Positions 1 to 5,407 of a stretch of DNA of 64,000 nucleotides are shown one piece after another. How positions within the stretch are numbered: position 1 is the first letter of the stretch; each line of letters opens with the position of its first letter. This stretch comes from Candidatus Woesearchaeota archaeon (lineage in GTDB: Archaea; Nanobdellota; Nanobdellia; Woesearchaeales; GW2011-AR9), in contig JABHDY010000002.1 of NCBI GenBank assembly GCA_018676855.1, forward strand, positions 1 through 64,000, given 5' to 3'. A program made the translations under genes and the position numbers. The notes beneath the pieces were generated by a model that was not told the DNA's origin, ran no database searches, and worked only from the letters and a program-made list of their open reading frames with translations.

Positions 1-1292
1 AGGGAAGCGGTGTGAAAGTGCCGTAAGTCACATGGGTACGACCTGAAACCGAGCGATCTATTCCTGGGCAAGGTGAAGCGATAGTAACATATCGTGGAGG
101 CCTGTAGAGGTTCTGTGTACAAGCGTTCTTGTGACCTGGGAATAGGGGTGAAAAGCCAATCGAGCTCGGCGATAGCAGGTTCCTGCCGAAATTGACCTTA
201 GTCAAGTCTCGGACGAGATAGTTATGGTTGTAGAGCTACGGATAGGAGATTTAGGCGGAGAAATCTGTCGGTTTCCTGTCCAACTCCGAATGCTGTAACG
301 TTGTAGACTCTGGGAAACAGGGAATCTTGGGGTAAACTTGATTTCCGTGAGGGGAACAACCCAGACCATGGTTAAGGCCCCTAAGTGTCAACTAAGTGAT
401 AAAGGGTAAACGGTGTTCGTGATCTTAGACAGCGAGGAGGTTGGCTTAGAAGCAGCCATCCTTTAAAAAGTGCGTAACAGCTTACTCGTTGAGATCGTGA
501 GCCCGGAAAATTGACGGGTCTAAGTTGACCGCCGATACCATGGGCCATGAATAATGGAGATAGGCAGGCGTTCTTGTAGGGCAGAAGCATTTCCGTGAGG
601 AGATGTGGACCTTCAAGAAATGAATATCCTGGTGATAGTAGGATCCTAGCGAGGTGAGAAACCTTGTCGTCGGAAGGGCAAGGGTTCCTTGGCAATGCTC
701 TTCAGCCAAGGGTTAGTCGGTCCTAACCGTACTCTTAACCGATGTACGGGAAAGGGAAAGTGGTTAATATTCCACTACTGTTTTAGTATGCGCGGCGACG
801 CAAGCTTTGTTTCTGACACATTGGAATAGATCAACATTTCTTGTCTGAAATGTTAATGTGGATAGGTCAAGGGAGTATCGTAATGATGAGAACTTGATGA
901 AACCGCAGATGAGCAGGCATATTGTCTGTTTGATTGATTTCTGGTGTCCTTGAAAAGGGAACATTGAAATATCTAAAATAACCGTACCCAGAACCGGCAC
1001 TGGTGCCCCTAGGTGAGTAGCCTAAGACGTGAGAGTGTAATCTAGCTTAGGGAATTCGGCAAATTAGTCCCGTATCTTCGGTATAAGGGATCCCTGTCTT
1101 CGTATCTGTATAGGTGCGATGTTAGGGTGCAATAACTAGGGCGGTCCGACTGTTTAACAAAAACTTAACTTTCTGCAACGCTGTAAAGCTTAGTATAGAA
1201 GGTGACATCTGCCCAGTGCCAGTACTTTAAGCCTCGTTCCAACGGGGTGAAGAGCTGGTAAACGGCGGGAGTAACTATAACTCTCTTAAGGT

Positions 1293-1622
1293 ATGCACAA
1301 AGTTGCCTTAAGTCCCAGTTGTTAAACATGAATACCATTCAGAAAACATGGGATAAAAATCTAACTAAATGCTGGAAAATCTCTGTATCTTGTTGTAGGA
1401 TATTGTTTTGGTAACGAAGCAACGACCCCTGAAAATCAACAAGTGGAGACAATCAGCAGGAAAGACTTCTCATTGAGAAGAATCCTCAGAGACTACATGT
1501 TAGACACCATTATTGGTGAAGATATAGTCCGACCTGCATAGCGATATGTAGAGATATACAGAAATGTGTATCCGCCATTTCTTTAAGTGGTTAGTACCCG
1601 AAAGGGGAAAGTAACAAATGTG
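1293..1622 (+). other. Group I self-splicing intron in 23S rRNA (insertion equivalent to E. coli L1931), no ORF inside
   Basis: Interrupts CTCTTAAGGT^AGCGAAATGCC. P1: 5' exon CUUAAGGU (to 1292) pairs with IGS GCCUUAAG (1305-1312) with terminal U.G; P3 AACATG (1325-1330)/CATGTT (1496-1501); P7 GACTA (1491-1495)/TAGTC (1525-1529) within 'cagagactaca'...'aagatatagtcc'; P8 CACCA/TGGTG (1505-1509/1514-1518); omega-G at 1622. Confidence 0.93.
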
Positions 1623-2162
1623 AGCGAAATGCCTTGCCGTTTGAATGACGGCCTGCATGAATGGTGTAACGAGATCGCCACTGTCCCAAGCTAGAAACTC
1701 CCGAAAATTCCATCCTGGTGCAAAGGCCAGGGACTTCCAATGGGAAGCGAAGACCCCGTGAAACTTTACTGTAGCCTGTCGCTGTGGTGTGACGTTTGGT
1801 ATATAGTGTAAGTGGGAGCCGTTTGAGGTCATGAGCGTCAGCGTATGACTTAGGCAACAATGTAACACCACTTATCAAAAATTATATCACTTACCTCTTG
1901 TAGGGACACCGATTGGTGGACAGTTTGGCTGGGGTGGCACGCTGTTGAAAAGATATCAATAGCGCCCAATGGTTGGCTCATCCGGTTTAGAAATCCGGAG
2001 TAGAGTGCAAGGGCATAAGCCAGCCTGATTGGACTTTAAACATAACGAATTCCAAACACGAAAGTGTGGCCTAGCGAACCTCTGTGCCTTCTTAATGAGG
2101 GCCAGAGCAGACTGAAAAGTTACTCCGGGGATAACTGAGTTGTCGCGCCCGAGAGTTCATAT

Positions 2163-2195
2163 TTAGTATTCATCATGGATACTAGAAGAATATAT
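2163..2195 (+). other. ~33-nt insertion at the tip of 23S helix 89 (expansion hairpin or mini-intron)
   Basis: Near-universal 'AGUUCAUAUCGACGGCG' is split: 'gagttcatat' + ttagtattcatcatggatactagaagaatatat + 'cgacggcg'; insert folds as TTAGTAT...ATACTAG, extended by ATATT/AATAT. Confidence 0.7.
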
Positions 2196-2633
2196 CGACG
2201 GCGCGGTTTGCTACTTCGATGTCGGCTCATCCTATCCTGGTGGTGCAGAAGCTACCAAGGGTGGGGGTGTTCACCCATTAAAAGGGTTCGTGAGCTGGGT
2301 TCAGAACGCTGTGAGGCAGTTTGTTTGATATCTATTGGAAGTGTTTGACGTCTGAAAGGAAGGACCACTTAGTACGAGAGGAACGGTGGTTCGGAGCCAC
2401 TGGTGGACCGGTTATCCGACAGGGTACGCCGGGCAGCTACGCTCCAAGTGATAAGTGCTGAAAGCATCTAAGCACGAAGTACACCTTGAAAAGAGACATC
2501 ATAGGGCATCACAAAAACAGTGGTTTGATAGAACCGGTGTGTAAGTACGAAGGCAACGACGTATTCAGCATGCGGTTACTAACGTCCATATCTTGTGTTA
2601 TTCTTACATATGGTTTTCATTTACATTTTACTT

Positions 2634-3211: not shown

Positions 3212-5407
3212 ATGATTAATAACTTTAGTCCACGTTTATATCAACAGACAATTCTGGGAACAGCTGCACATAATAATACGTTAGTAGTACTCCCAACGGG
3301 CCTAGGAAAAACTGCTGTAGCGTTTTTACTTGCAGCACAAAGGTTACATCAATATCCAAATTCAAAAATATTAATGTTGGCACCAACAAAACCGTTATGT
3401 GAACAACATATTGAAACCTTTACAAACCATTTAAACGTTCAAAAAGAAAAGATTGTTTTATTCACAGGAAGTATTAAACCAGAAAAGAGAGCAGAGTTAT
3501 GGAAAGATGCACAAATAATTGTATCTACACCGCAAGGGCTTGAGAATGATGTTATTAACAAACGTGTAAAATTGCAGGAAGTTTCCCTATTAATATTTGA
3601 CGAAGCACATCATGCAACAAAAGAGTATGCGTATGTATGGATTGCACAACAGTACGATAAAGTCTCTGCACGTTCACGAATTTTAGCGTTAACTGCATCT
3701 CCCGGGTCTGATATGGAAAAGATTCGTGAAGTGTGTACCAATTTACATATTGAAAAGGTTGAAGTAAGGACTGATAAAGATCCTGACGTGAAACCGTACG
3801 TTCAAAATGTTAATATTAACTGGATACCTATCAAATTTCCAGATGAACTTAAAGGAATACAGAAATATTTACAGGATGCAAAAAAGAGTAAACTTATAGA
3901 AGCACAGAGGTACGGCCATTGTAATTCTGCATCATTAATGAAAGGTCAAATGTTAATGTTACAAGGAGACTTACAACGACAAATTTCATCTGGTCATAAA
4001 GATTTTGAAATCTTACGATCAGTATCATTAATCGCTGAAGCGTTAAAGATTGAACATGCACTTGAATTGTTAGAATCACAGGGCATTGCACCATTACATA
4101 CATACTTTACAAAAATGCAAAAACAGTCGTTAACATCTAAAGTAAAAGCTCTTAAAAACCTCTTGATAGATGAAAACGTTAAGTCTGCAATGTATCATAC
4201 AGATGAACTTTTCAAAAAAGAGTATAAACATCCTAAACAAGTTATGTTACAAGAAATGATGTTTGATGTTATTAATAAAACTCCTGATGCAAAAGCCATT
4301 ATCTTTACACAATTTAGAGATTCTGCTGAACAGATTGTCTCTACACTTAATGAACTTAAGATTACAAATCACATTTTTGTCGGCCAGGCAAAGAAGAACG
4401 GTATTGGTTTTTCACAGAAAGAACAGAAAGCTATCTTAGACCAATTTAGAACTGGTGAGTTTAACGTTCTTGTGGCAACGTCCGTTGCTGAAGAGGGTCT
4501 TGACATTCCTAAAGTTGATAAGGTTATTTTTTATGAACCCGTTCCTAGTGCTATTAGGTCAATACAGAGACGTGGAAGGACGGGACGTTTAGAAGAGGGA
4601 GAAGTTAACGTTCTTGTATCAACAGGAACAAGAGATGAAGCCTATCGTTGGTCAGCACATCATAAAGAAAAACGTATGTACAGAAATCTTGAAACCCTTA
4701 AGAAAGATTTTACGTTAAATGGAACTAAAAAGACAACATTACACAAATTCATTAAAGAGGACGAAATAGTTTCTGTCCTTGCAGATCATCGTGAAAAGAA
4801 TAATCGTATTGTAAAAGAATTGATTGATATAGGTATATCTGTTAAGACTGGTCAGTTAGTTTCTGCAGATTATCTTGTTTCAGGTAGAGTAGGTGTTGAA
4901 TTAAAAAAAGTACCTGATTTTGTTGCATCTATCATTGACGGTCGTTTATTGGAACAAGTACGAGATTTACGACAAAACTTTGACAAAGCTGTCGTTATAA
5001 TTGAAGGAGAGGAAGACATTTATGCTATTCGAAAGGTTCATGCGAACGCTATTAGAGGAATGTTAGCTTCTATTGTTTTAGATTTTGGCGTTCCGGTTTT
5101 ATATACAAAGAATCCAAAAGATACTGCTGCATTGTTGGCAGTGATGGCAAAACGTGAACAGAATAAAGAACGAGACGTTTCAGTTCATGATAAGAAACCT
5201 CATACAACGAAAGAACAGCAAGAATTTTTAGTAAGCTCATTTCCATATATTGGGTTAAACACTGCACGTTTATTACTGAACAATTTCGGTTCTGTCAAGA
5301 ATGTTGTGAATGCATCTAAAGAGGATATGACGATGATAAAAGGTGTAGGCCCAAAGACAGCTGAAAGGTTAACGACGTTGTTTGATGAGACGTATGAGAA
5401 AGATTGA
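3212..5407 (+). CDS. hef: Hef-like XPF/FANCM family helicase-nuclease
   Basis: LPTGLGKT, DEAHH, helicase C-terminal QRRGRTGR; ERCC4 nuclease region ADYLVSGRVGVELKKVPDFVASIIDGRLLEQ; C-terminal HhH GVGPKTAERL. Confidence 0.93.
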   Translation: MINNFSPRLYQQTILGTAAHNNTLVVLPTGLGKTAVAFLLAAQRLHQYPNSKILMLAPTKPLCEQHIETFTNHLNVQKEKIVLFTGSIKPEKRAELWKDAQIIVSTPQGLENDVINKRVKLQEVSLLIFDEAHHATKEYAYVWIAQQYDKVSARSRILALTASPGSDMEKIREVCTNLHIEKVEVRTDKDPDVKPYVQNVNINWIPIKFPDELKGIQKYLQDAKKSKLIEAQRYGHCNSASLMKGQMLMLQGDLQRQISSGHKDFEILRSVSLIAEALKIEHALELLESQGIAPLHTYFTKMQKQSLTSKVKALKNLLIDENVKSAMYHTDELFKKEYKHPKQVMLQEMMFDVINKTPDAKAIIFTQFRDSAEQIVSTLNELKITNHIFVGQAKKNGIGFSQKEQKAILDQFRTGEFNVLVATSVAEEGLDIPKVDKVIFYEPVPSAIRSIQRRGRTGRLEEGEVNVLVSTGTRDEAYRWSAHHKEKRMYRNLETLKKDFTLNGTKKTTLHKFIKEDEIVSVLADHREKNNRIVKELIDIGISVKTGQLVSADYLVSGRVGVELKKVPDFVASIIDGRLLEQVRDLRQNFDKAVVIIEGEEDIYAIRKVHANAIRGMLASIVLDFGVPVLYTKNPKDTAALLAVMAKREQNKERDVSVHDKKPHTTKEQQEFLVSSFPYIGLNTARLLLNNFGSVKNVVNASKEDMTMIKGVGPKTAERLTTLFDETYEKD

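Follow-up and report, generated by a model that had tools for sequence, protein, structure and literature searches.

The question raised by this locus is what splits a 23S rRNA gene near the start of the window, i.e. the whole 64,000-nucleotide stretch analyzed, and whether the interruption is removed from the transcript. There is little room for doubt that it is an endonuclease-free, self-splicing group I intron at LSU 1931, lodged in the sole 23S copy found in a Woesearchaeota-like archaeon. The intron, 330 nt long and on the + strand at window positions 1293-1622, interrupts a gene of archaeal type. Rfam's group I model (Intron_gpI, RF00028) matches the window at 1313-1551 over its full length (1-253 of 253) with 74.2 bits, above the gathering cut-off of 50 bits (E 4e-19 to 6e-17 by search space), and the covariance-model check proposed along with the sequence-only reading, which had delimited the same intron, thus came out in its favor. 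The flanks are archaeal LSU rRNA (RF02540, 1952 bits, window 1-2601, model positions 749-2987), with the gene's 5' end cut off, as window base 1 is contig base 1 and lies inside the gene. Our inventory of introns in this 23S covers the same model positions, and further introns upstream are possible.

1..1292, + strand: 23S rRNA 5' exon, truncated at the contig start (RF02540)
1293..1622, + strand: group I intron, after the E. coli U1931 equivalent (RF00028; junction CTCTTAAGGT^...G^AGCGAAATG)
1623..2601, + strand: 23S rRNA 3' exon (RF02540)
1622, + strand: terminal guanosine (omega G); the last intron base is G in 55 of 56 L1931 introns

The 5' exon ends in ...CTCTTAAGGT at 1292, the 3' exon restarts with AGCGAAATG at 1623 and the insert ends in G; by counting from U1911, we take the insertion point to lie directly after the equivalent of E. 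coli U1931. Applied to MNWW01000056.1, the same junction-parsing rule returns 681 nt, the published length of intron IB4.27 at LSU/1931. This agreement serves as a control on the site as well as on the boundaries and bears out the L1931-equivalent position claimed from the letters alone. A closely related L1931 intron was found in a second, independently assembled genome (L004), which counts against an assembly artefact. Adjoining the 23S gene, window 3212-5407 holds a 731-aa helicase-nuclease ORF with, by eye, an archaeal Hef/ERCC4-type look.

The structure from P1 to P9.3, including the P3/P7 pseudoknot, was drawn by hand on the window intron, and all its pairs are standard.

1285..1312, + strand: P1, 8 bp between exon CUUAAGGU (1285-1292) and internal guide GCCUUAAG (1305-1312), with U1292.G1305 at the 5' splice site
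1302..1304, + strand: P10 strand GUU, whose partner is the 3' exon AGC at 1623-1625 (pairing survey)
1314..1352, + strand: P2 hairpin CCCA/UGGG (1314-1317/1349-1352) with the conserved GUUAAACA motif, absent from most L1931 introns
1360-1365/1499-1504, + strand: P3 (drawn fold, covariation)
1370-1375/1453-1458, + strand: P4 (drawn fold, covariation)
1380-1449, + strand: P5/P5a/P5b with a GUAA loop (drawn fold, covariation)
1459-1485, + strand: P6/P6a, closed by a 3-nt loop (drawn fold, covariation)
1491-1495/1525-1529, + strand: P7, forming the pseudoknot with P3 (100% paired in 29 introns)
1505-1518, + strand: P8 (drawn fold, covariation)
1519-1524, + strand: J8/7, AAGAUA (drawn fold)
1534-1551, + strand: P9 with a GCGA loop (drawn fold, covariation)
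1553-1572, + strand: P9.1 with a GAAA loop (drawn fold, covariation)
1575-1590, + strand: P9.2 (drawn fold, covariation)
1597-1606, + strand: P9.3 (drawn fold, covariation)

The drawing contains the features by which a group I intron is recognized, namely a P3-P9 catalytic core with the P3/P7 pseudoknot and a P1 with U.G at the 5' splice site together with the terminal G1622. All elements picked out in the sequence-only reading (the 8-bp P1 ending in U.G, P3, P7, P8 and the terminal G) are present, and the segment that it quoted, aagatatagtcc, comprises J8/7 and the 3' strand of P7. To assess the fold across relatives, we aligned 29 L1931 introns (alignment A1: the window's and 28 others) and compared them with 500 shuffles and with a slid-structure control. 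Standard pairs occupy 94.3% of pair cells in A1, against 74.1 +/- 0.6% after shuffling and 35-43% after sliding; two-sided changes occur at 61 of 85 pairs, and the covariation score is 0.508 versus 0.162 in the control. None of the 500 shuffles matches the real alignment on any measure. Drawing the fold on the window intron biases control (b) in its favor, and the covariation in A1 far exceeds what this bias would yield. The splice sites are conserved, the U.G of P1 is kept in 29 of 29 introns and P7 shows an A-U to G-C change in 11 of them, while among the P2-bearing introns two-sided changes affect all four P2 pairs. P10 can form with 3 of 3 pairs in 40 of 55 L1931 introns and with at least 2 pairs in all 55. 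The folding energy of the window intron is -96 kcal/mol versus -72 +/- 5 kcal/mol for shuffles (z = -4.7).

Since bulge-helix-bulge introns are the usual type in archaeal rRNA (PMC6125680), the insertion could in principle be one of these, removed by the tRNA splicing endonuclease. The characteristic arrangement of a 3-nt bulge, 4 bp and a 3-nt bulge with two outer helices was found within 6 nt of neither junction, and a full group I core with covariation is present instead; we thus rejected this reading, whose probability we consider negligible.

A further question is whether the group I intron is still active. The genome that carries it has one detected 23S, partial and holding the intron, and one partial 16S located at a contig end. 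Since the only 23S copy detected is interrupted, the intron would almost certainly have to be spliced, and we infer from family membership that this is a guanosine-initiated self-splicing reaction. The internal guide would pair with the eight exon bases that precede the intron to form P1, and an exogenous guanosine, held in P7, would attack after U1292; the freed U1292 would then attack after G1622, joining ...CUUAAGGU to AGCGAAAUG, so that the expected spliced 23S junction (1292/1623) reads CUUAAGGUAGCG. Alternatively, the insertion might be a decayed or non-splicing remnant, unspliced or fragmenting in the ribosome, a reading with which the missing endonuclease is compatible. It is nevertheless very improbable, because all helices are intact, the insertion interrupts a highly conserved part of the 23S at the subunit interface and the genome yielded no other 23S copy. 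Comparison with the nearest relative, the intron of L004 (88.5% identity over 286 nt, the same figure as for L038; many other L1931 introns stand at about 70-82% over 150-330 nt), argues in the same direction: 15 of 84 comparable pairs have changed, 7 on both sides and 8 on one side, and none is broken.

The next issue is mobility. No homing endonuclease gene was found in it, the longest stop-to-stop frame being 58 codons, and it is thus compact and ORF-less as had been read from the sequence. Its P6a loop counts 3 nt at the place where relatives hold their endonuclease gene. Some 20 L1931 relatives have a longer ORF that overlaps the core, placed between strands P4' and P6' (its ...ADNQQERLD... 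segment is encoded by P4'/P6), and both partial copies examined are LAGLIDADG_1. The sequence-only reading had placed the intron in a region targeted by nucleases. To be precise, the I-CeuI and I-PpoI sites that it invoked are L1923 and L1925, a few bases upstream of L1931. At the exact site, the endonuclease that relatives carry is a single-motif LAGLIDADG_1 (PMC11270868).

We infer that the endonuclease was lost from a mobile ancestor and that the intron is presently immobile; in the absence of such a gene, it is probably now passively inherited. The main competing view is that it still moves with an endonuclease supplied in trans, either by another intron or by a freestanding 233-aa LAGLIDADG_3 / Hom_end protein encoded in the same genome (G000:C1:698513-698737; L123 1396-2097, minus strand), whose gene is flanked by other ORFs and located away from rRNA. 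The patchy distribution of L1931 introns and the disagreement, in places and with weak support, between intron and 23S trees could be read in this sense. We nevertheless consider it unlikely, as the L1931 endonucleases tested are LAGLIDADG_1, which was not found in the genome carrying the window intron, and as an AU test does not reject a single clade for the four same-family introns (p 0.38). Horizontal transfer among close relatives was also considered and set aside, since the tree conflicts are weakly supported and AU tests do not reject host-like grouping.

The window clusters with members of its family on the 23S tree and is placed among named Woesearchaeota records. In this family, L1931 carries an insert in 5 genomes and is intact in 13, the remaining genomes having no readable 23S site or one deviating from the search pattern. 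An intron-free close relative, G024 (L122), with about 88% 23S identity in the 5' exon, is sister to the intron-bearing L004 (SH-aLRT 92), a pairing that calls for one loss or more, or else a second gain. L004 itself was considered as a possible chimera, its identity to the window being 89% in the 5' exon and 77% in the 3' exon, and this was discarded as the 3' exon is no nearer to other sampled lineages. In L008 (G026, 1430-1860), one of the five family genomes with an insert, a group I core at L1931 has an odd 5' junction: the exon reads CTCTTAAG then TAAATAATTATAC, with neither GGT nor the GCCTTA guide present, which reflects either a misassembly or an altered 5' end.

Beyond the family, a pattern scan of named genomes returned 82 stretches, with introns in over 50; its haloarchaeal matches were mostly false, i.e. 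intact sites. L1931 is occupied patchily in Woesearchaeota, Pacearchaeota, Thermoplasmata, an Altiarchaeota bin, an Asgard bin and haloarchaea (about 50 further introns), the endonuclease being kept in some of these lineages and absent in others. The junction-pattern scan of viruses gave no match and plasmids no match to the window intron, while phage matches to it are limited to a short stretch around P7/P8. Group I introns at L1931 junctions of archaeal type also occur in three contigs labelled Limnochordia, Patescibacteria and Aminicenantes (L036, L043 and L051); as L036 falls among Woesearchaeota on the 23S tree and the start of L051 resembles the L003 intron, they are probably mis-binned.

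Occupancy of this site in archaea is well documented. Nawrocki, Jones and Eddy (2018; PMC6125680) described group I introns at 39 archaeal loci in all, with LSU/1931 as the commonest site and hosts including Woesearchaeota, Pacearchaeota, Thaumarchaeota, Micrarchaeota, Nanohaloarchaeota and Euryarchaeota among others. Endonuclease matches were present in 21 of the 39 and absent from 18, and several introns, only 248-403 nt long, leave no room for a complete endonuclease gene; endonuclease-free LSU/1931 introns of Woesearchaeota were already among them. Short published introns of Woesearchaeota include KP308713, KP308715, KP308717 and KP308748. The novelty implied by the sequence-only reading was thus overstated. 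The window intron, which shares site, domain and Woesearchaeota hosts with IB4.1-IB4.6, IB4.22, IB4.24 and others and differs from them in species and sequence (PMC6125680), occupies the archaeal LSU 1931 site with a homologous core and is, as assigned by site and homology, a further member of this known L1931 family, named IB4 in the literature. Group I introns of Thermotoga, Simkania and Synechococcus occupy the identical site and, like the archaeal relatives, have a LAGLIDADG gene of the single-motif type that extends into the core (PMC1995217). These bacterial introns carry the endonuclease and measure 654-700 nt, whereas the window intron lacks it. Bacterial L1931 introns were described in that 2007 study as IC1-like and without P2 (PMC1995217); P2 is absent in Synechococcus and present in the window intron. 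CPR bacteria also have group I introns at this site, LAGLIDADG_1 being common, in bacterial hosts (PMC11270868). The window intron is a well-supported addition to archaeal group I introns, and as a single genome it leaves current knowledge unchanged.

In a typical L1931 intron, P1 is directly followed by P3. Fourteen introns, including the window's, combine an extra P2 hairpin with an 8-bp P1, and 13 of these 14 are endonuclease-free; the P2 insert follows the pattern AAG[N]C[C/U]...GUUAAACA...GGGAUAA, the motif varying slightly in a few. The association of P2 with endonuclease absence gives a Fisher p of 0.007 for all introns and 0.057 for the pattern-scan set alone, and it is not significant in a tree-aware test. 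A single origin is not rejected by AU tests, either for all P2-bearing introns (p 0.13) or for the 14 introns with the GUUAAACA motif (p 0.19), which nearly coincide with the 14 that have P2 and an 8-bp P1. The P2 hairpin with the 8-bp P1 is a minor feature that may be undescribed. That P2, GUUAAACA and the 8-bp P1, almost always endonuclease-free, mark an undescribed Woesearchaeota-like L1931 subgroup persisting without homing is a tentative proposal, which we hold to be rather less likely than its opposite.

Other insertions were met during the survey. Group I intron matches without Rfam rRNA in the fetched stretches came from G221 (six, in L011, L029 and L031-L034), G201 (L013, with two in tandem, and L030) and G022 (L002). 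In archaeon GW2011_AR19 (L100, JWKY01000014.1, 1224-2526, minus strand), a 1303-nt L1931 insertion has, in place of a homing endonuclease, an ORF of 170 codons with an NYN domain (Pfam NYN, E 1e-14); for this contig, only an L2593 intron is given in PMC6125680. The oddest item, which lies outside the window, is a 1308-nt L1931 insertion in a Pacearchaeota contig (L067, JAGVXG010000008.1, 2261-3568, minus strand) that has a group I core and no LAGLIDADG gene. Two small ORFs, one DUF4258-like (E 8e-4, short of the Pfam threshold) and one DUF2283 (E 2e-13), lie between the P7 5' strand and the J8/7-P7' strand, apparently in the P8 loop, and an additional 102-codon ORF of unknown family is found in the P6 region. 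The DUF4258/DUF2283 pair is reminiscent of toxin-antitoxin modules, and it would be unusual for a group I intron in rRNA to carry such cargo.
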